Below are positions 5,595-62,908 of a stretch of 64,000 nucleotides of DNA, piece by piece (position 1 is the first letter of the stretch; the number at the start of each line of letters is the position of its first letter). The position numbers were made by a program, and so were the translations under genes. Under the pieces are notes generated by a model. The model was not told the DNA's origin, made no database searches, and saw only the letters and a program-made list of their open reading frames with translations. This DNA is from Opitutaceae bacterium EW11 (GTDB lineage: Bacteria > Verrucomicrobiota > Verrucomicrobiia > Opitutales > Opitutaceae): NCBI GenBank assembly GCA_003054665.1, contig QAYY01000011.1:594654-658653 (forward strand), written 5' to 3'.

Positions 5595-5674
5595 GGAGTT
5601 GGAATTTGGGAATTGGAAGTTCGGACCAGGCGCGACGCTTGCGGCCAACTTCCAACCACCAATTTCCAACTTCC
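5595..5674. repeat. Inverted-repeat element with GAAGTTG-type heptamer arms
   Basis: Left arm 5595-5621 and right arm 5647-5674 pair with about 23 of 27 positions matching and one gap. Each arm is a run of degenerate 7-bp units (GGAGTTG, GAATTTG, GGAATTG, GAAGTTC on the left; TTGGAAA-like units in the complement on the right). GC-rich palindromic sequence flanks both arms. It fills most of the gap between tdh and the S9 peptidase stop. A single arm of the same family lies at 16148-16180. Too short to encode anything. Confidence 0.7.
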
Positions 5675-11546: not shown

Positions 11547-12875
11547 ATGACCAAACCGTCGACCATCAGAATCGGCATCTGCGGCCTCGGCACCGTCGGG
11601 CAAGGGGTGTGGAAACACCTCGAGCGCTCGCGTGCCGACCTGCAATCGCGGCTCGGTGTGACCATCGAGCTGCACCGCGGCGCAGTCCGCGATCTGTCGA
11701 AACGTCGAACGGTGGACATTCCGGTCGAGAAGCTCACCACGGACGCGCTTGCGGTCGCGACCGACCCGTCACTCCACATCATCTGCGAGCTGATCGGTGG
11801 CACGGGTTTGGCGCGCGAGGTGACGCTCGCGGCGTTGAAAGCCGGCAAGGTCGTCGTTTCCGCGAACAAGGCGCTGCTGTGCGACCATGGGGCGGAGATT
11901 TTCGCAACGGCCCGAAAACACGGCGGCCATTTCTTGTTCGAAGCATCCGTGGCGGGCGGCATTCCGATCATCAAGGCCGTACGCGAGGGACTCGTCGCCA
12001 ACCGCTTCAAGCTGATCTACGGGATCCTGAACGGCACCTGTAACTACATCCTCACGCGGATGGTGCAGGAGGGGGCGTCATACCCGACGATCCTGGCCGA
12101 CGCAAAGCGCCTGGGCTACGCCGAGGCGGACGAGGCGCTCGACGTCGACGGCTGGGACACCGCTCACAAGGCCTCCATCCTGGCCTTTCTCGCCCACGGC
12201 GTCTGGGTGAAAACCGACCAGATGATCGTCGAGGGCATTTCGAAGATCACGCAGGCGGACCTGAAGCACGCCGCGACGCTCGGTTACGGGATCAAGCTCC
12301 TCGCGGTGATCACCCGCGACTTCGAAGCCAACCAGGTTTTTGTCCGTATTCACCCGACGCTGCTTCCGAAGGACCGGGTGCTGGCCAACGTGAACGGCGT
12401 GTTCAACGGGATCGCCGTGACCGGCGACGTCGTCGGCACGACCACCTACATCGGCCGAGGGGCAGGGCAGGATGCCACTGCCAGCGCGGTGATCAGCGAC
12501 ATCGCGGATGCGGTGGCGCTGCTGACGACCGGCAAGGCTCCGATGCTGCCGGAAGAAGCGGCGTCGATCCACGATCGAGGCCGCAATCCCTCGATCGCGC
12601 CCCTCGACAAGATCCGGAGCCGCTACTACCTGCGCATGACGGTGAAAGACGAGCCGGGCGTGCTCGCCCAGGTCGCCACCGTGATGGCGAATCACGCCAT
12701 CAGCATCGCAAGCGTCATCCAGACGAGCAGCGAACGCTCGGATGCCGCGTCGCTCATCCTCACGACGCATGAAAGCGACGAGCGTGCGATGGGCCAGACT
12801 CTCGCCGACCTCCAGAAGCTCAGCAGCATCCTCGAAGCGCCGCTCCTCCTCCGGATCGGGGATTTTGAGGAGTAA
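11547..12875 (+). CDS. hom: Homoserine dehydrogenase
   Basis: A 442-residue NAD(P)-dependent homoserine dehydrogenase that reduces aspartate semialdehyde to homoserine for threonine and methionine. N-terminal Rossmann motif GLGTVGQGV, the NGTCNYIL motif of the catalytic domain, the EADEALDVDGWDTAHKA segment carrying the catalytic lysine/aspartate region, and a C-terminal ACT domain (VKDEPGVLAQVA) for threonine feedback are all present. Followed by lysC and thrC, which makes a hom-lysC-thrC threonine cluster. An inverted-repeat element starts 9 bp after its stop codon. Confidence 0.96.
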   Translation: MTKPSTIRIGICGLGTVGQGVWKHLERSRADLQSRLGVTIELHRGAVRDLSKRRTVDIPVEKLTTDALAVATDPSLHIICELIGGTGLAREVTLAALKAGKVVVSANKALLCDHGAEIFATARKHGGHFLFEASVAGGIPIIKAVREGLVANRFKLIYGILNGTCNYILTRMVQEGASYPTILADAKRLGYAEADEALDVDGWDTAHKASILAFLAHGVWVKTDQMIVEGISKITQADLKHAATLGYGIKLLAVITRDFEANQVFVRIHPTLLPKDRVLANVNGVFNGIAVTGDVVGTTTYIGRGAGQDATASAVISDIADAVALLTTGKAPMLPEEAASIHDRGRNPSIAPLDKIRSRYYLRMTVKDEPGVLAQVATVMANHAISIASVIQTSSERSDAASLILTTHESDERAMGQTLADLQKLSSILEAPLLLRIGDFEE

Positions 12876-12884
12876 CGGAAGACG

Positions 12885-13082
12885 AAGGGCTGAAAGGCTG
12901 AAGGACTGAAAGGCTGAAGCCGGAGAGCGCAGCTGTTTGCCTGGCTGCGTCGGGCCGCGGCCGTCCGGGCCGCATTCTAGAGGATGGCGTGCGGCACGCC
13001 CGGGCTCGCTGCGAGATCATGGGCCCCCTGGAACGCTTTCTCACTTCCTTCAGCCCTTCAGTCCTTCAGCCTTTCAGCCCTT
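12885..13082. repeat. Inverted-repeat element with near-perfect 35-bp octamer arms
   Basis: Left arm 12885-12919 and right arm 13048-13082 are reverse complements at 34 of 35 positions. Each arm is four tandem 8-bp units (AAGGGCTG, AAAGGCTG, AAGGACTG, AAAGGCTG) plus a partial fifth. The 128-bp GC-rich loop has no recognisable gene. The element fills the whole gap between hom (stop at 12875) and lysC (start at 13143). Related arms occur at 37911-38057, 55331-55440 and 62643-62908. Confidence 0.9.
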
Positions 13083-13142
13083 TTCCTCTAAAATCCGCTG
13101 GCCGTCGGTGCTATTTCCCGTTTCGACTTACCCTCTCCGTCC

Positions 13143-14363
13143 ATGGCACGCATCGTCCAAAAATACGGCGGCACCTCTGTAGGTGACGTCGAACGCATCA
13201 AAAAGGTCGCCGAGCGCATCAAGGCCGTTCGCGACGAAGGCAATGAACTCGTGGTCGTGGTGTCGGCCCGCGCCGGCGTCACGAACGAACTGATCGCGAG
13301 AGCTCAGGCCGTGTGCAAACAGCCGAGCGACCGCGAACTGGACATGCTCCTCGCCGTCGGCGAGCAGGAGACGATCGCACTCACCGCCATGGCGCTCCAC
13401 GGCGTCGGAGTCGACGCCATCAGCTACACGGGAGCCCAGGCCGGCATTTTCACGGACAAGATCCACACGAAGGCGAAGATCATGACCATCGACGCCCGCC
13501 CGATCGTGAAGGACCTCGAAGCGGGACGTGTCGTCATCGTTGCCGGTTTCCAAGGCATCAACGAAGACGGTCAGATCACGACGCTTGGCCGCGGAGGTTC
13601 CGACCTGACGGCGATCGCGCTGGCTGCCGCGGTGAAGGCCGATAAATGCGAGATCTATACCGACGTCGATGGCGTATACACCGCCGATCCGCGCGTGGTG
13701 AAGGACGCGAAGAAGCTCCAGGAGATTTCCTACGACGAGATGCTCGAACTCGCGTCGTCCGGCTCGAAGGTGATGCAGAGCCGCTCGGTCGAGTTCGCCA
13801 GCAAGTACAACGTCGTTTTTGAAGTGCGCAGCAGCTTTAACCACAATCCAGGAACCATCGTGAAACAAGAAGTCGCCTACATGGAGAAGGTCGTTGTCCG
13901 CGGCGTCGCGGTCGACAAGGACCAGGCCAAGATCGTCGTGAGCAACATCCTAGATAAGCCGGGCTCCGCGGCGAAGGTCTTCCGTGCGCTCGCCGATGCG
14001 AACATCATCGTCGACATGATCGTCCAGAACGTCGGTCGCAACGGCGTCGCCAATCTCACGTTCACGGTTCCGCAGACGGACTCGGTTCGTGCGCAGAAGG
14101 CCCTGGAGCCGGTCGTGCTCGAAATCGGCGGCGGCCACGTCGCGGTGCAGGATCAGATCGCGAAGCTTTCGGTTGTCGGCGTCGGCATGAAGACGCACTC
14201 CGGCGTCGCCGCGACGCTCTTCCAGGCTCTCGCCAACGTGGGGATCAACATCGACCTGATCTCGACGTCCGAGATCAAGATCACCGTCGCGATCGAGAAA
14301 GCCCGCGCCGACGAAGCCGCCCGCGCCGTCCACACCGCCTTCGAGCTGGACAAGCTGGGCTGA
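13143..14363 (+). CDS. lysC: Aspartate kinase
   Basis: A 406-residue monofunctional aspartokinase that phosphorylates L-aspartate, the entry to lysine, threonine and methionine synthesis. The kinase domain has the KYGGTSVGD nucleotide motif at the N terminus, GRGGSDLTAIALA and the TDVDGVYTADPRVV motif. Two tandem ACT domains follow (from about residue 265 and 340), matching the beta-type regulatory region that binds lysine and/or threonine. Lies between hom and thrC, each separated by a repeat element rather than by ordinary spacer. Confidence 0.96.
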   Translation: MARIVQKYGGTSVGDVERIKKVAERIKAVRDEGNELVVVVSARAGVTNELIARAQAVCKQPSDRELDMLLAVGEQETIALTAMALHGVGVDAISYTGAQAGIFTDKIHTKAKIMTIDARPIVKDLEAGRVVIVAGFQGINEDGQITTLGRGGSDLTAIALAAAVKADKCEIYTDVDGVYTADPRVVKDAKKLQEISYDEMLELASSGSKVMQSRSVEFASKYNVVFEVRSSFNHNPGTIVKQEVAYMEKVVVRGVAVDKDQAKIVVSNILDKPGSAAKVFRALADANIIVDMIVQNVGRNGVANLTFTVPQTDSVRAQKALEPVVLEIGGGHVAVQDQIAKLSVVGVGMKTHSGVAATLFQALANVGINIDLISTSEIKITVAIEKARADEAARAVHTAFELDKLG

Positions 14364-14364
14364 C

Positions 14365-14727
14365 CAGATGTCAGAAGGCAGAGGTCAGAGGCCAGAGGAA
14401 GCCGTCGAGGAATCTCGTCCCATCAGGCGCTTCTCCGGCCTCTTTGTTTGGCAGCGCATCTTCTACGTCGCTACCGAGGTTTTCGTAATCTCGAAGTCGT
14501 GGTCCCCTGATGAACGTTATTCCCTGACCGATCAGATACGCCGTTCAGCTCGGTCGTTAGGCGCCCATATCGCTGAGGTTTGGGGCAAGCGACCAGCTCT
14601 TGGAACAAGTTCGGCAAATGGGCAGGATGCACGGCGGCGTAATGGCCGATCCAACACCGTTTCTGCGTCGCTTGTAAGGGGACTGAATGCTGTTTTCTGA
14701 CATCCGACCTCTGACCTCCGACATCTG
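14365..14727. repeat. Inverted-repeat element with CAGAGGT-type heptamer arms enclosing a gene remnant
   Basis: Left arm 14365-14396 and right arm 14696-14727 pair at about 26 of 32 positions. Both arms are tandem degenerate 7-bp units (CAGATGT, CAGAAGG, CAGAGGT, CAGAGGC and so on). The left arm begins one base after the lysC stop and the right arm ends 13 bp before the thrC start, so the element occupies the entire 377-bp intergenic gap. The loop holds a damaged four-helix-bundle protein gene. Confidence 0.85.
14368..14677 (+). pseudogene. Four-helix-bundle (S23/IVS-type) protein remnant, internally deleted
   Basis: Frame 1 (from 14368) encodes the first two helices of the S23-like four-helix-bundle family: FVWQRIFYVATEVF, then SPDERYSLTDQIRRSARSL and GAHIAEVWGKR, ending at about 14592. 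The frame then becomes meaningless, but in the +1-shifted frame 14594-14677 encodes QLLEQVRQMGRMHGGVMADP, which matches the last helix of the same family, ending at TAA 14675. Roughly 40 residues (third helix) found in intact relatives are missing at the junction, so this is a deletion-frameshift remnant. Its apparent ATG lies inside the left inverted-repeat arm. Family proteins form pentamers and are best known from 23S rRNA intervening sequences and as Avd partners of diversity-generating retroelements; function mostly unknown. Confidence 0.75.
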
Positions 14728-23129: not shown

Positions 23130-25817
23130 TCAACCGATGACCGACTTGAGCGTTTTTCCAAGATCGGCCGCGCGGAACGGTTTGGACAGGTAACCGGAGA
23201 AACCCATGTCGGTGTAGTGCCGGATCATGTCTTCGCTGTCGTAGCCGCTGCAGACGATCGCCCGCACGTCCTTGTCCATCTCGCGGAGCTTGTGGAAGGT
23301 CTCTTCGCCGCCCGCGCCGCCGACGATCGTGAGATCGAGGATGACGGCGTCATAGGGGCGGCCGATGTTGAGATGCCGGCGGTAGAGCGTGATGGCCTCC
23401 TCGCCGTTGCGCGCGATGTCGTACTTGTAGTCGAGGCTGGCGAGCATGCCTTCCGCCAGGTGGCAGATGTCGGGATCGTCGTCCATCAGCAGGACTCGGC
23501 CGGTTCCGAAACGGAGGCTCGGGGCCACGCGCTTGTTCGCCGCGTCGGCCGCGGTTGCGGCTCGGGGCAGCAGGACTTGAAAGGTCGTGCCGGCGCCGAG
23601 CGTGGAAGTGACGCTGACGTCGCCGCCGAACTTCCGAACGATGCTTCGCACCATCGAAAGACCGAGTCCGGTGCCGCTCTTCTTTGTGGTGAAGAACGGC
23701 TCGAAGATGAGCTCCAGATTCTCCGGCGCGATGCCACAACCGTTGTCGCGAACTTCGATCCGGACGTAGCTGCCCGCGGACAACCCGGAAGCGTTTCCCT
23801 CCTCGAGGGCGACATTGACGCCGCTCAGCCAGAGACTGCCGCCTCGCGGAGGCAGAGCCTGAAGGGAGTTGATGATGAGATTCTGGAAAACCTGGAGAAT
23901 CTGCGCGCGATCGACCTGGATCGGATGAATCGAATCCGGAATCTCGATACGAAACTCCGCGTTGGTGCCGGCCCGGGCGAGGCGGACGGCGTCGCGCACG
24001 ACCTCCTGGACCGGAATGGTCTGAACCACCTCCGATTTTCCGCCCCGGGCGACCGCCAGCAGCTGTTTCGTCAGCGCTTTGGCTGCGAGGCAGGCGCGTT
24101 CGCTGTCGGCCAGGTAACTGTAATCCTTGCTGTCCTTGGCCTGGGAAATCCCGCCGAGGATCGTGGTCAGCAGGTTGTTGAAATCGTGGGAGATTCCGCC
24201 GGCGACGATCCCGAGGTTTTCAAAGCGGTTGATCTTGAGCAGCTCGTCGGGCGACAGGCTCATTTCCTCCGGATCGCGGAAGATGATCACGATCCCGCCC
24301 AGCTCGGCTCCCGCGTCGGCGACCCGCCGTGCCGACCAGACGATGTTGCGGAGGCTGGCGTCCGCCACGGAAACAAGCGCGTGGTCGCTGAAGAGGCGGC
24401 CTTCCTCGGAATTTGAGAGCGCGGTTTCAAACGGGTCTTCAACCACCGACCGCGAATCGCGGTATACGAGACGGAACACCTGCTCGAGATTCCGCCCGCG
24501 GGCGTCGCGACGCTCAAGCCCGATGAGCCGTTCGGCCCGGGCATTGAGATGCGTGACGATGCCCTGTGCGTCCGCGACGACAATGCCCTCGCCGAGGGAA
24601 TCCAGGGTCGTTTGAAGCAAGGCGGGCCCGAACGGAAGCGCGGCCGACTTCGGCAGGGCGTCGGGCAGCGCGCAGGCGAAGCCGACAGCGCGGACAAGCT
24701 CCCCCTTGCGAGAGAGCTGGCGGTGCGCGCCGAAAAGGACCGAGACGCTCGAGCCGTCGGCGTGGATCAGTCGAAGCTCGGTGATGAACGAGGGGTGCCC
24801 GACATTGGGCTCCACGAAAAACGATTCCGCTCCGCGCATCGCGCGGCCCGACGGCAGCGCTTCGACAAAATCCTTGAGGGCCTGCGCGCCCTCGAGCGCG
24901 GTCGAGCCAATCAGCTTACGCCAGTGCGGGGAAAACCAGTATTGCTGGCTCGCGAAGTTCAGGTCGAACAGACCGACGTCGCCGCTCTCGACCAGCCGCT
25001 GCATCCGCTCCTCGTTTGCCAGCGTCTGCTCCTCGAGTTCCTTCCGCTCTGTAATGTCGATTTGGAGACCGGTGACGCGCTCCAGTTCCCCCATACTGCC
25101 GTACACCTGGGTTCCCAGGCAATGGACCCAGATGTAGTTGCCGTGGCGATGCAGCATTCGAACCTCGACGGCGAAGCTCCGCGCCGAACGGGGGGCGCGC
25201 TTCCCGGTGTGGTCCGGCGCCGCGGCTGAATCTTCCGGGTGGAGGAGCCGCAGCCAGCTGTCGTAGGTGTTGGCCAGCTCGGTGTCGTTGTATCCGAGCA
25301 TCCGCTTCCAGGCAGGCGAGTAGTAGACCTGCCCCGCCTTGAAGTTGAGGTCGAAGAAGCCGACGGGGCCTTCGTTGGAAAGGAGAGCCAGCCCGGAGTC
25401 CACGACCATCGGCGACACATTCGAGGCGGGGGTCTCCGCGCTTTCGATCTGCGCGAAGTACCGGGCGTCATCGAGGCCTGATTCCTCCAGTCGCACCACG
25501 ACCTTGGGTGCGATCGCGGGCGGGTTCGTGCGAATCGAGCAGGAAAACGGGCGGCCCACGGCGGTTGCCCGAAGAAGCTCCCACTGCGCTGCGGATGGAC
25601 CGGAGTGAACGGACTCCGGGCCGAAGCTGAAGAGCGAGACAACGGGAACGCCGATCAGGCTTTTGGCCGGCGTCCAGTAGACTTCCGCGCTCCGCGAGAC
25701 ATCGACGACGTGACCCTCGGCGTCGAGGGTGAGCAGCACCGGGGCGCCGGAAGGCTGTCCACTCGCCGGAACGGAGGCGCTGCTCCGGCTGGGAGTCTGC
25801 TTCACATACTGCATCAT
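23130..25817 (-). CDS. Hybrid PAS sensor histidine kinase with C-terminal receiver
   Basis: An 895-residue apparently cytosolic kinase: no membrane segment is evident. Order: PAS-like regions at ~25-130, 150-265 (ending DITERKELEEQ, a PAC signature), 275-385 and 395-515; HisKA with phospho-acceptor H544 in GISHDFNNLL; HATPase with N box NLIINSLQALP, G1 DNGCGI and G2 GTGLGLSMV; then a receiver domain with the phospho-accepting D near 828 in VILDLTIVGG, T/S and K (YLSKPF). The H-box type (SHDFNN) is that of the PAS-rich kinases common in Verrucomicrobiota and Myxococcota. No response regulator or output gene is adjacent, so target and signal are unknown. Confidence 0.93.
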   Translation of the reverse strand: MMQYVKQTPSRSSASVPASGQPSGAPVLLTLDAEGHVVDVSRSAEVYWTPAKSLIGVPVVSLFSFGPESVHSGPSAAQWELLRATAVGRPFSCSIRTNPPAIAPKVVVRLEESGLDDARYFAQIESAETPASNVSPMVVDSGLALLSNEGPVGFFDLNFKAGQVYYSPAWKRMLGYNDTELANTYDSWLRLLHPEDSAAAPDHTGKRAPRSARSFAVEVRMLHRHGNYIWVHCLGTQVYGSMGELERVTGLQIDITERKELEEQTLANEERMQRLVESGDVGLFDLNFASQQYWFSPHWRKLIGSTALEGAQALKDFVEALPSGRAMRGAESFFVEPNVGHPSFITELRLIHADGSSVSVLFGAHRQLSRKGELVRAVGFACALPDALPKSAALPFGPALLQTTLDSLGEGIVVADAQGIVTHLNARAERLIGLERRDARGRNLEQVFRLVYRDSRSVVEDPFETALSNSEEGRLFSDHALVSVADASLRNIVWSARRVADAGAELGGIVIIFRDPEEMSLSPDELLKINRFENLGIVAGGISHDFNNLLTTILGGISQAKDSKDYSYLADSERACLAAKALTKQLLAVARGGKSEVVQTIPVQEVVRDAVRLARAGTNAEFRIEIPDSIHPIQVDRAQILQVFQNLIINSLQALPPRGGSLWLSGVNVALEEGNASGLSAGSYVRIEVRDNGCGIAPENLELIFEPFFTTKKSGTGLGLSMVRSIVRKFGGDVSVTSTLGAGTTFQVLLPRAATAADAANKRVAPSLRFGTGRVLLMDDDPDICHLAEGMLASLDYKYDIARNGEEAITLYRRHLNIGRPYDAVILDLTIVGGAGGEETFHKLREMDKDVRAIVCSGYDSEDMIRHYTDMGFSGYLSKPFRAADLGKTLKSVIG

Positions 25818-31437: not shown

Positions 31438-32919
31438 ATGAACCCAAGGCCTCGGTCGGTTCCCGGTCTGCTGAAATGGGCAGGGGTGCTCTGCGCTCTT
31501 GCTCTGGCGTCTTCCGTATACGCCCAATCCACACCTGTCCCTAAAGCATCGGATCTCTCGGATCTGCGCACGGGCCTGGATACCGTGTGGGTTCTCGTGA
31601 CGGCGATGCTCGTGTTCTGGATGAACGCAGGGTTCGCGTTGGTGGAGTCGGGCCTCTGCCAGAGCAAGAACTGCGTGAATATTCTGGCCAAGAATTTCAT
31701 CGTTTTTGCCGCCTCCACGATTTCGTTCTGGGTGTTGGGATGGGGACTTATGTTTGGCGACGGCAATCTTCTTGTCGGCCTGAAGGGACTCTGGTTCGTG
31801 GGCGGGGCGGACAATTCGCCCGCGCTCGGTGAGGCCTATGCGGCGATGAACCCGTTCGTGACCGACAAATACGACGGCGTTTACAGCGCGATCAATTGGA
31901 CCCCTGTCCCGCTCTGGGCGAAGTTCTTCTTCCAGCTGGTGTTCGCCGGCACCGCCGCGACCATCGTTTCGGGCGCGGTTGCCGAGCGGATCAAATTCGG
32001 CGCATTTTTGATCTTCAGCTTCCTCCTGGTGGCATTTGTCTACCCGGTATCGGGTCACTGGATATGGGGTGGCGGACTGCTGTCGGGCGCGACGGGCGCC
32101 TGGGCCAATATGCGCGACTTCGCGGGCTCGACCGTGGTCCATTCGGTCGGCGGCTGGGCTGCTTTGGCGGGCGTGATTGTGCTCGGCCCACGCCTCGGCA
32201 AATACCGCAACGGGAAGGTGAATCCGATTCCCGGCCACAACATGACGTCCGCCGCACTCGGCGTGCTCATCCTCTGGCTCGGCTGGTTCGGGTTTAACCC
32301 AGGCTCGACGATGTCGGCCGGAAACGGCAAAGCCATCGCGCACATCCTGGTGAATACCAATGTGGCGGCCGCGACCGGCTCCCTCGGCGCCTTGGTCGCT
32401 GCATGGGTCCTTCTGAAGAAGCCGGATCTCTCGATGATTCTGAACGGTTGTCTGGCCGGCCTCGTTGCGGTGACGGCTCCTTGCGCCTTCGTCACGATTA
32501 CGTCCGGCGCGATCATCGGATTGATCGCCGGCGTATTGGCCGTTCTCGCGGTGGTCTTTTTCGACAAGCTGAAGCTCGACGACCCGGTCGGCGCGCTTTC
32601 GGTTCACTTGGTGAACGGTGTCTGGGGAACGCTCGCTCTCGGGCTCTTCTACAACGGCAAGGCTGATTACGGAGACGGTGCGGTGGCGAACACGATCGCC
32701 GCCCTCGACACGGGGCTTTCGCGCGGTGCGCAAACCATCGAGCAACTCAAGGGTATCGCCATCGTGGGTATCTTCGCCTTCACCCTGTCGCTGGTCTTTT
32801 GGTACATCCTCAAGGCGGTTCTTGGAATTCGAGTCTCGGCCGAGGAAGAAACCGAGGGCCTGGACGTCGGCGAACACGGCAACGAAGCCTACCCGGACTT
32901 CTCCACCTCGCACAAATGA
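31438..32919 (+). CDS. amt: Ammonium transporter (first copy)
   Basis: A 493-residue Amt/MEP/Rh channel with a cleavable signal peptide (ending SSVYAQ) and 11 predicted membrane segments. Conserved elements: NAGFALVESGLC near the N terminus, AGTAATIVSGAVAERIKF, the twin pore histidines in STVVHSVGGWAAL and LSVHLVNGVWG, and the cytosolic C-terminal tail ending in GLDVGEHGNEAYPDF that contacts P-II proteins. It imports ammonium across the inner membrane. glnK follows 86 bp downstream, the classic amtB-glnK pair. A sigma-54 type promoter lies upstream. Confidence 0.95.
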   Translation: MNPRPRSVPGLLKWAGVLCALALASSVYAQSTPVPKASDLSDLRTGLDTVWVLVTAMLVFWMNAGFALVESGLCQSKNCVNILAKNFIVFAASTISFWVLGWGLMFGDGNLLVGLKGLWFVGGADNSPALGEAYAAMNPFVTDKYDGVYSAINWTPVPLWAKFFFQLVFAGTAATIVSGAVAERIKFGAFLIFSFLLVAFVYPVSGHWIWGGGLLSGATGAWANMRDFAGSTVVHSVGGWAALAGVIVLGPRLGKYRNGKVNPIPGHNMTSAALGVLILWLGWFGFNPGSTMSAGNGKAIAHILVNTNVAAATGSLGALVAAWVLLKKPDLSMILNGCLAGLVAVTAPCAFVTITSGAIIGLIAGVLAVLAVVFFDKLKLDDPVGALSVHLVNGVWGTLALGLFYNGKADYGDGAVANTIAALDTGLSRGAQTIEQLKGIAIVGIFAFTLSLVFWYILKAVLGIRVSAEEETEGLDVGEHGNEAYPDFSTSHK

Positions 32920-32993
32920 CGCAAAAATCGCCCGATGCTTTCCGCTGGCTTGCGTCGGGCGATGCGACGTCTCATGTAATTGATATCTACTAA

Positions 32994-33344
<351 letters not shown>

Positions 33345-37898: not shown

Positions 37899-37910
37899 GG
37901 CGGAAAAGGA

Positions 37911-38057
37911 AAGCTGAAGGACTGAAAGGCTGAAGGGCGGAAAAAAAGGCGGGTTCGACGCGGGTGGAAAAGTGAACGGAGTGGGGGAGAAGCTTGGGCG
38001 GAAAAGCGGCGGTTTCGAATCCTTCAGCCTTTCAGCCCTTCATTTCTTCAGCCCTTT
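37911..38057. repeat. Inverted-repeat element, octamer (GGCTGAAG) family
   Basis: Left arm 37911-37936 and right arm 38021-38057 are built of units such as AGGACTGA, AAGGCTGA and their complements; about 22 of 28 aligned positions match as reverse complements. It spans the entire thrS-cysS gap, and the right arm runs into the 3' end of cysS, supplying its last Lys-Gly codons and stop (AAGGGCTGA on the minus strand). Confidence 0.75.
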
Positions 38058-55009: not shown

Positions 55010-55348
55010 ATGATTCCCGGTGAAATCATTGTCGTGGCCGACGAAGCGCCGCTTGACGCGAACATCGGCCTCGAGACGGTCACGATCGACGTGGTGAACA
55101 CCGGCGACCGTCCGATCCAGGTCGGATCGCATTTCCACTTCTTCGAAGTCAACGAGGCGTTGCACTTCGACCGTGCCGGCTCTCGGGGTTTCCGGCTGAA
55201 CATTCCGGCGGGCACCGCGGTGCGTTTCGAAGCCGGGGACAAAAAGCGCGTCGAACTCGTCGCCCTCGCCGGTACGCGGCAGGTGTACGGCCTCAACGGC
55301 AAGGTGAATGGGTACCTCGAACCAAAGGCGGAAGGACTGAAGGGCTGA
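55010..55348 (+). CDS. ureB: Urease beta subunit
   Basis: A 112-residue beta subunit ([58 protein letters not shown]). ATG 55010 aligns with the family. The C terminus reads [11 protein letters not shown]-stop: the final residues are encoded by the left arm of the octamer repeat at 55331, which therefore provides the stop codon. The structural core ends before this, so function should not be affected. Confidence 0.96.
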
Positions 55349-55440
55349 AAGGCTGAATCGAACCGCATCGTTCACCCCCAACGTTCGTCTCCTCCGCGCG
55401 CCTCCTTCAGCCCTTCAGTCCTTTGGCCCTTCAGCCCTTT
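55331..55440. repeat. Inverted-repeat element, octamer family, overlapping ureB 3' end
   Basis: An 18-bp perfect core (AAGGACTGAAGGGCTGAA at 55332-55349 with its complement at 55406-55423), extended by further degenerate units on both sides. The left arm overlaps the last codons of ureB and the right arm ends 7 bp before the ureC start, so the element is the whole ureB-ureC gap. Confidence 0.85.
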
Positions 55441-55447
55441 TCCTCCC

Positions 55448-57211
55448 ATGCTCTCCCTCACCCGACGCCAATACGCTGAGATGTTCGGTCCCACCCTCGG
55501 TGATCGTGTCCGACTGGCGGATACGGAGCTCGTCGTGGAAGTCGAGCGCGACCTGATCGCCGAGCGCGGCGGCTACGGCAACGAAATCAAGTTCGGCGGT
55601 GGCAAGGTCATCCGCGACGGCATGGGGCAGTCGCCAAACGCTTCGGATGCCGACTCGCTCGATCTGGTCATCACCAACGCGCTGATCCTCGATCCGGTTC
55701 TCGGCGTCGTCAAAGCCGACATCGGAATCAAACACGGCGTCATCGTCGGCATCGGGCACGCCGGGAATCCCGGCATCCAGGATGGGATTGGCTCCGCGTA
55801 TCCGGAGCCGCGCACGGGAAAACCGAATCCGATGATTGTCGGCGCCTGCACGGAAGTGCTCGCGGGCGAAGGCTGTATCGTCACGGCGGGAGGGATCGAC
55901 ACCCACATCCATTTCATCTGCCCGCAGCAGATCGAAGAGGCGATTTCCAGCGGGGTGACGACGATGCTCGGCGGCGGCACGGGACCGGCGACCGGCACGT
56001 TCGCGACGACGTGCACGCCGGGTCGTTGGAACATCCACCGCATGCTCCAGGCGGCGGAGGCTTATCCGATGAATCTCGGATTCCTCGGAAAGGGAAATTG
56101 CGCCACGCCCGGTCCCTTGCGCGAACAGGTGCTGGCAGGGGCCATCGGCCTCAAACTCCACGAGGACTGGGGAACGACGCCGGCTGCGATCGACACCTGC
56201 CTCGCGGTGGCCGATGAACTCGATGTCCAGGTGGCGATTCACACCGACACGCTCAACGAGGCGGGTTTTGTCGACGAAACCATCCGTGCCTTCAAGGGCC
56301 GCGCGATTCACACCTACCACTCGGAAGGTGCCGGGGGCGGGCACGCGCCGGACATCATCCGTGTCTGCGGCGAGGCGAACGTCCTGCCATCGTCGACGAA
56401 TCCGACGCGTCCGTTCACCGTGAATACGATCGACGAGCATCTCGACATGCTCATGGTCTGCCATCACCTCGACGCGAAGATTCCCGAGGACGTGGCGTTC
56501 GCAGAGTCCCGGATTCGGCCGGAGACCATCGCGGCGGAGGATTGCCTGCACGACCTCGGCGCCATCTCGATGATGTCGAGCGACAGTCAGGCGATGGGCA
56601 GGGTGGGCGAGGTGATCATCCGGACGTGGCAGACCGCTCACAAGATGAAGGTCCAGTTTGGCCGCCTCTCAGGGCCATCGCATCCGGCGGCCGACAACTT
56701 CCGTGCCCTACGGTACCTCGCGAAATACACCCTGAATCCCGCGATCACACACGGCATTCGACATATCGTCGGGTCGCTCGAGGTCGGCAAACTTGCCGAT
56801 ATCGTGGTATTCAAACCGGCACTCTTCGGAGTGAAACCCGAACTGGTGCTCAAGGGCGGCTTCATCGCCTGGGCGAACATGGGCGATCCCAATGCATCGA
56901 TCCCGACGCCGCAGCCGACGTTCTACCGTCCGCAGTTCGGCGCGGCTGGGCGGGCGTTGTCCGCCACGAACGTGACGTTCGTCAGCGAGGCGGCCCTGCG
57001 CGCGGGATCCGTCGCCGAACTGGGGCTGCAGCGACGGGTCGAGGCGGTGCGGAGCTGCCGCACGATCACGAAGCGCGACATGGTTCTCAACGACGCTCTG
57101 CCGAAAATCGAGGTGGATCCGGAAACCTACACCGTCAAGGCCGACGGCCACGTGCTCACCTGCGAGCCCGCAAAGAGCCTTCCGATGGCCCAGCGGTACT
57201 TTTTGTTCTAG
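55448..57211 (+). CDS. ureC: Urease alpha (catalytic) subunit
   Basis: A 587-residue nickel amidohydrolase producing ammonia and carbamate from urea. Nickel ligands and active-site residues are all present: H153 and H155 (DTHIHF), the carbamylated K236 (GLKLHEDWG), H265, H291, the mobile-flap C338-H339 (MVCHHL) and the D in SSDSQAMGR. It is about 15-20 residues longer than the Klebsiella protein, mainly from an insertion near 110-130 ([13 protein letters not shown]). The stop codon lies within a palindrome. Confidence 0.98.
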
Positions 57212-62603: not shown

Positions 62604-62642
62604 GGGAGAAGAAAGGCGGAAAGGCAGAAGGGCTGGAAGAGG

Positions 62643-62908
62643 AAAAAGGCTGAAGGGCTGAAAGGCTGAAGGTCTGACGGAAGAAAAACGGCTGAGGAGT
62701 AGCGGGACGCAAGGGGCGAACCGCATCAGCATGCGCTTAGCAGCCTAGTTCGTGAGAGTATCGCAGCGCACCGCGATGCAAAGTCTGGTTCGGCGATCTG
62801 ACGATTTCGCCTGCCTTCCGGCGCGAGATCCAACGGCAGCGCGCCGCCAACGGCTACCGCCGGATTTGTCCTCAGCCCTTCAGCCTTTCAGTCCTTCAGC
62901 CCTTTGCC
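62643..62908. repeat. Inverted-repeat element, octamer family, between hprK and rph
   Basis: Left arm ~62644-62681 (units AAGGCTGA, AGGGCTGA, AAGGCTGA) and right arm 62871-62908 match as reverse complements at about 33 of 37 positions. Additional weaker units (AAAGGCGG, AAAGGCAG) extend left to ~62610. The ~190-bp loop has no recognisable gene. The right arm abuts the hprK stop codon at 62909. With flanks this is a 305-bp gene-free stretch. Confidence 0.85.

Follow-up and report, generated by a model that had tools for sequence, protein, structure and literature searches.

The closest known system to the elements described here is the intervening sequence (IVS) of 23S rRNA that carries an S23p open reading frame. 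To our knowledge, the S23/IVP protein family has neither an assigned function nor a known enzymatic activity. The IVS elements of Coxiella and Leptospira are described as being a few hundred nucleotides long, with inverted complementary borders and with an S23/IVP open reading frame or none (PMC4990558), and in these respects our elements are alike. In the account given there of the Coxiella IVS, tandem heptamers lie at the 5′ border just upstream of the S23p start, strains differ in the number of heptamers, and RNase III is said to cut at the first repeat (PMC4990558). The same source presents IVS elements as thought to be mobile, with the open reading frame as a possible component of mobility (PMC4990558). 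Unlike the IVS of 23S rRNA, the elements described here lie between protein genes and not in rRNA helices, and they have word arrays at both ends, many copies per genome and many different words. No intergenic S23 cassettes with word-array ends are reported in the open-access S23 literature that we searched; that work describes the rRNA element.

REP, REPIN and MITE-type non-autonomous elements are also small inverted intergenic repeats with many copies, some of them with a common spacer. The elements studied here, however, end in arrays of a 7–8 nt word, and their spacers are mostly unshared within the genome under study. The STRR sequences of cyanobacteria are degenerate heptanucleotide arrays between genes, and we know of none that form inverted pairs or are linked to S23. 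Arrays of the heptamer TAACTGA have been reported from Beggiatoaceae and from some Cyanobacteria and Bacteroidetes (PMC4679880). They too are tandem arrays of a short word at many intergenic sites, often directly before start codons, but they are direct repeats of one exact word and the abstract of that paper names no link to S23 (PMC4679880). Finally, the 23S rRNA IVP domain is given among the proteins newly associated with CRISPR arrays (PMC10910872); this association might be due in part to word arrays being misread as CRISPR-like repeats.

The inverted repeat between hom and lysC

We analyzed a stretch of 64,000 nt from the genome of Opitutaceae bacterium EW11, here called the window. Between hom and lysC it contains an inverted repeat with the following parts and neighbours.

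11547..12875, + strand, homoserine dehydrogenase gene (hom), left neighbour
12885..12919, + strand, left arm, AAGGGCTG AAAGGCTG AAGGACTG AAAGGCTG AAG, that is four AARGRCTG octamers and AAG
12920..13047, spacer of 128 nt
13048..13082, − strand, right arm, AARGRCTG array on the opposite strand, with 34 of its 35 positions complementary to those of the left arm
13143..14363, + strand, gene of an aspartokinase-type kinase with ACT domains (lysC), right neighbour

The left arm starts 9 nt after the hom stop codon, the right arm ends 60 nt before the start of lysC, and thrC follows farther downstream of lysC. An earlier note on this DNA had described near-perfect arms of 35 nt, placed 128 nt apart and built from tandem octamers. 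This description is accurate: each arm consists of four AARGRCTG units, and read from the outside inwards the right arm differs from the left arm by one base. For the transcript of the gap RNA folding predicts a long hairpin (−134.7 kcal/mol, z = −5.96). The repeat does not have the form of an intrinsic terminator, that is a short GC stem followed by a T run, and a scan of positions 12800-13200 yielded neither a terminator nor a promoter pattern. No Rfam family reaches its gathering score over the repeat. At a lax threshold the family sR30 matches the end of hom and the left arm (12858-12919) with 14.4 bits and E 0.29, which is the level of chance.

With the S23/IVS elements the repeat shares the inverted complementary borders and the tandem repeats of a short word at the border. 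It has no S23p/IVP open reading frame, which is present in an element with the same word on contig C4, and it is located between protein genes and not in 23S rRNA. A remnant of S23 was looked for in the spacer 12920-13047 and is absent, and the sequence of this spacer is not common to other octamer elements of the genome. As in MITE-like elements, the ends are common to a larger gene-bearing element, namely to the S23 cassette on C4, which has the same word (score 28). The sharing of spacers known from MITE-like elements is not seen in the EW11 genome and is seen for the AGGAGTC copies of the genomes G002 and G070 described below. In our view the hom–lysC repeat probably belongs, as a member without a gene, to a class of small intergenic repeat elements that resemble S23/IVS.

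The AARGRCTG family in the genome and the same gap in relatives

The octamer is dispersed over the genome. A pattern of two octamers has 28 near-matches in the window compared to 0.23 in shuffled sequences. In the 6.4-Mb genome this 16-mer pattern is matched exactly 125 times, spread over about 30 or more sites, with 0 matches to the reversed pattern; with 24-mers of AARGRCTG and at most two mismatches there are 139 matches and 0 in the control. Three further inverted pairs of AARGRCTG arrays are present in the window (37909/38025, 55324/55408 and 62612-62645/62873), all with the polarity of the hom–lysC pair, and elements with other words are found as well.

5597..5671, small TTGGAAG-type inverted pair, its word being common to the S23 gene on contig C45
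14364..14727, + strand, second element, TCAGAGG-type inverted arrays in the lysC–thrC gap, enclosing a truncated S23/IVP gene
14368-14700, + strand, truncated S23/IVP open reading frame, covering PF05635 positions 3-53 of 106
37909..38056, AARGRCTG inverted pair with a thrS-like and a cysS-like gene as neighbours
55324..55439, AARGRCTG inverted pair between the urease beta and alpha genes
62612..62904, AARGRCTG inverted pair whose left side has two arrays, with an RNase PH-like and an HPr kinase gene as neighbours

Close to the urease pair, the Rfam family 5_ureB_sRNA matches positions 55609-55940 of the window on the minus strand (89.5 bits), antisense to the urease alpha gene; this match probably reflects coding conservation rather than an sRNA.

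The arms were surveyed in the window, in 26 stretches of the same genome with matches and in one stretch around an S23 gene. Exactly four units make up 43 of the 59 AARGRCTG arms, and in every pair the array on the upper strand comes first. The analysis of neighbouring genes covers 20 of the 24 pairs, three overlapping rows and one row without neighbour being left out; the genes were called with a simple script and long distances are unreliable. At least 17 of the 20 pairs are located between co-directional genes and none between divergent genes. For the left arm a called gene is at most 25 nt away in 13 cases, and for the right arm at most 26 nt away in 16. In the window, too, all six elements, including one in the gap between an alcohol dehydrogenase and a peptidase gene, are found between co-directional genes. 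Apart from local duplication, the spacers of the octamer elements are unshared between sites of this genome, and therefore copying of whole elements is not visible here. S23 remnants are absent from 23 of 24 octamer spacers, the sole find being the known cassette on C4.

Homogeneous expansions of AAGGGCTG occur in the stretches L017 (2375-2486, 14 units) and L022 (2593-2747, 5 and 8 units around an N gap). Both adjoin a common inner sequence; normal arms instead alternate their units.

Searching relatives for the same gap, we found 80 loci with Hom, 71 of them with a measurable hom–lysC gap. None of these 71 gaps has AARGRCTG arms, and a recent formation, as the earlier note had proposed, is possible for the hom–lysC copy. 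Many of the gaps are only 15-30 nt long and contain no element. By eye, inverted arrays of a GTTGAG-type heptamer are seen in the gaps of at least 12 relatives (e.g. L047, L064, L074, L084 and L085), and different words in those of L060 and L099. In L045, L048, L084, L085 and L088 the gap downstream of lysC, at 6.1-6.7 kb of these loci, contains word elements too; the long ones are of the TCAGAGG/GCCAGA type and the short gene-less ones have another word.

Coupling between the arms

The near identity of the two arms had been ascribed, among other possibilities, to gene conversion between them. This idea fails. Within the 24 AARGRCTG pairs of the genome the arms are 81.6% identical, compared to 81.7% after shuffling of the pairs (p = 0.58). 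Where the hom–lysC gap of relatives has GTTGAG-type arms (11 relatives), the own pairs score 20.5 and permuted pairs 21.6; the arms of relatives drift independently, a result obtained with the GTTGAG word and not with AARGRCTG. Permutation thus leads us to reject arm-to-arm conversion, both in the EW11 genome and in the relatives with GTTGAG arms. Because the identity within pairs equals that of shuffled pairs, the 34 matches in 35 positions mark the high end of the distribution in a family whose arms all resemble one another. Arms taken from different pairs agree at 31 or more of 32 positions in 20 of 552 combinations, a level equal to that which the hom–lysC pair reaches. The 34/35 identity therefore reflects the common word and not conversion between the arms, and the conserved feature is the word and not its pairing partner.

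A further suggestion of the earlier note, selection on a cruciform or RNA stem, agrees with the prediction that a long stem can form. A functional RNA hairpin would mean that the stem is needed in the hom–lysC transcript, be it as an RNase III site, for attenuation or for stabilisation of the mRNA. The strong predicted fold is consistent with this, as are the location of at least 17 of 20 octamer elements and of all six window elements between co-directional genes and the inverted layout that the different words in the gap of relatives retain. However, the arms of a pair are not coupled, neither in the EW11 genome nor in the same gap of relatives, and the compensatory changes between arms that mark a structured cis-regulatory RNA were found in neither of the two. 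Selection that preserves wobble pairing can be rejected, as in co-directional gaps 28 differences between arms keep G–U pairing in the sense RNA and 49 break it, a trend in the opposite direction. The lack of a terminator or promoter pattern in 12800-13200 and of an Rfam family at gathering score, as well as the many relatives which have a gap of 15-30 nt and no element, also argue against a required stem. We consider it unlikely that the hairpin as such is the function of the repeat.

S23 cassettes, word turnover and gene-less copies

The protein family PF05635 (23S rRNA intervening sequence protein, S23/IVP) has three matches in the EW11 genome. All three S23 genes are enclosed by inverted word arrays, which are of AARGRCTG on C4, of TTGGAAG on C45 and of the TCAGAGG type after lysC. 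TTGGAAG arrays have 56 matches in the genome, one pair being that around the C45 S23 gene, and at least two words, AARGRCTG among them, are amplified. Among 100 Opitutaceae genomes, 81 contain the family. We scored the arms at 33 Opitutaceae S23 loci, that is the 30 best loci of relatives and the 3 own ones. The score exceeds 17, the highest value of the shifted control, at 27 of these loci; the count rests on this control, and a cross-locus control reached 211, which we take to stem from near-identical loci of related genomes. The same value is exceeded at 26 of 30 S23 loci in four genomes. Phylum-wide, 13 of 26 S23 loci score above 18, the highest of 52 controls, and the median is 18.5 compared to 10. 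In 40 S23 cassettes fitted with a period of 7 the arms have a median of 4.4 units. A separate count of repeats gave 25 direct and 29 inverted ones and 0 in shuffles. Arm scores within and across cassettes (26.6 and 18.5) were not used, since the arms are defined by alignment within the cassette and the comparison is biased. A rule that the two least conserved positions of the word are adjacent found no support (15 of 40 compared to 13.3 expected).

Word and S23 protein are inherited together. From 87 loci, 76 had an arm score of at least 15, and 70 cassettes remained after six near-identical ones were dropped. In this set the similarity of the S23 proteins correlates with the similarity of the words (Mantel r = 0.38, 0 of 5000 permutations). 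With flipped, that is reverse-complemented, words r is −0.02, with arms trimmed to 28 nt it is 0.39, and for pairs without flank homology it is 0.23, again with 0 of 5000 permutations. There are 54 pairs in which S23 and word are both alike, 38 with flank homology and 16 without; much of the co-inheritance is therefore vertical, but not all. The S23 protein of the AARGRCTG cassette on C4 has its best match among the 87 in G006 (57% identity), where the arms also consist of AARGRCT octamers and the flanks are homologous to those of the C4 cassette.

Elements are replaced between near-identical genomes. We compared 160-kb stretches of G002 and G070, whose blocks are mostly 92-98% identical. At one site with flanks of 96-97% identity the S23 cassette has TTTTCGA arms in one genome and ATGCGGA arms in the other, and the two S23 proteins are 57% identical. 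The swap between TTTTCGA and ATGCGGA is seen again at a gene-less site nearby. In another gap G002 has an AARGRCTG element and G070 an unrelated sequence of 80 nt. A clean empty site or a target duplication of a word element was not found; the gaps of G002 and G070 show replacement.

Gene-less copies can share inner sequence with an S23 cassette. In G002/G070, which represent a sister genus, eight gene-less AGGAGTC copies have a spacer of about 85 nt in common, and over the first 10-25 inner bases they match the S23 cassette with that word, best in copy A_11517. Among 22 gene-less elements detected regardless of their word, 14 reach a score of at least 20 with an S23 word from the genome in which they lie, eight of them belonging to the clustered AGGAGTC copies; an S23 word of G001 is matched by none of the 22. 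Nine of the 22 elements are in G002, and only 4 of those match an S23 word of that genome. AARGRCTG 24-mers have 52 matches in G002 and 9 in G001, and none of the S23 genes found in these two genomes carries the AARGRCTG word.

Alternatively, a host regulator, such as ribosomal protein S1 or a Csp- or CsrA-like protein, might bind the arrays at the edges of genes, with the S23 genes as passengers. In 16 of 20 pairs no more than 26 nt separate the right arm from a called gene, and right arms often end a few nucleotides before the start codon. Such positions would suit binding sites, and a like proposal has been published for the TAACTGA arrays of Beggiatoaceae (PMC4679880). Those repeats, however, are reported as direct (169 sets), with one indirect, and not as inverted pairs (PMC4679880). 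Moreover, the type of S23 and the word go together, and at one and the same site two genomes of 96-97% identity have entirely different words, a change with which it would be difficult for a host regulator to keep pace. We thus regard a host regulator as very unlikely. Neutral slippage with template switching, in which an octamer expanded by slippage would be copied to the other strand by hairpin-mediated repair, has the homogeneous AAGGGCTG expansions in its favour (14 units in L017, 5 and 8 in L022) but is hardly credible, as an octamer equals its neighbour in 9 of 144 cases where 29.6 are expected, the opposite of slippage, as the two arms of a pair resemble each other no more than other arms do, and as AARGRCTG at more than 20 unrelated sites is left unexplained.

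Taken as a gene-less S23/IVS-like element, the hom–lysC repeat fits the following scheme. An element is bounded on both sides by a 7-8 nt word repeated in tandem, typically 4-5 times, with the two arrays inverted. Larger members enclose the gene of an S23/IVP four-helix-bundle protein, and many others only a short non-coding spacer. In the EW11 genome AARGRCTG bounds one S23 gene (C4) and more than 20 gene-less spacers, one of them in the hom–lysC gap. The S23 cassettes could be mobile units with the word arrays as their recognised ends, and the gene-less copies would then depend on a factor supplied in trans, either S23 or its system. In mRNA the paired arms may form a long hairpin which RNase III could cut, as in the S23-bearing IVS of 23S rRNA. 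Three results weigh against our reading: the spacers of the EW11 genome are unshared, AARGRCTG arrays occur in G002 and G001 although the S23 genes found there carry other words, and the gaps compared gave neither a clean empty site nor a target duplication.

The S23 homologues 2gsc and 2rld are structure-bank entries with five chains, and an S23-type protein of Xanthomonas is described as a homopentamer of toroidal shape (PMC4990558). It is conceivable, although we give it a low probability, that an S23 homopentamer wraps an arm of 4-5 repeats, one repeat to each subunit, and so marks its own element and the gene-less copies of the same word for processing or copying. That the 4-5 repeats per arm suit one repeat per subunit is a conjecture. 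TRAP offers a comparison for a ring protein with one repeat per subunit. If this idea is true, the word changes in step with S23, and sites all over a genome can be taken over by a new S23/word pair; sequence-specific, ring-shaped binding of nucleic acid would then be a function for a family that has none. Both the recognition of a specific short repeat by S23 and the spread of elements driven by S23 are now testable.

The hom–lysC repeat is ordinary within its family, yet it leads to a general anatomy. In Verrucomicrobiota, S23/IVP is for the most part encoded between other genes, in cassettes that end in word arrays, and the word moves with the protein. This explains intergenic repeats that differ in almost every genome and therefore escape searches for repeat families.

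The comparison of G002 and G070 showed some further sequences. Two similar gene-sized inserts of contig G002:C1 (about 24146-25020 and 32166-33068, in L177) are missing from G070; one splits a gene-less word element and the other has TTCATCAG at both sides. Other inverted families are present in the gaps of G002:C1 and G070:C1, for example with the ends ACCACGGA..TCCGTGGT and GTAGGGGCGCACC..GGTGCGCCCCTAC.
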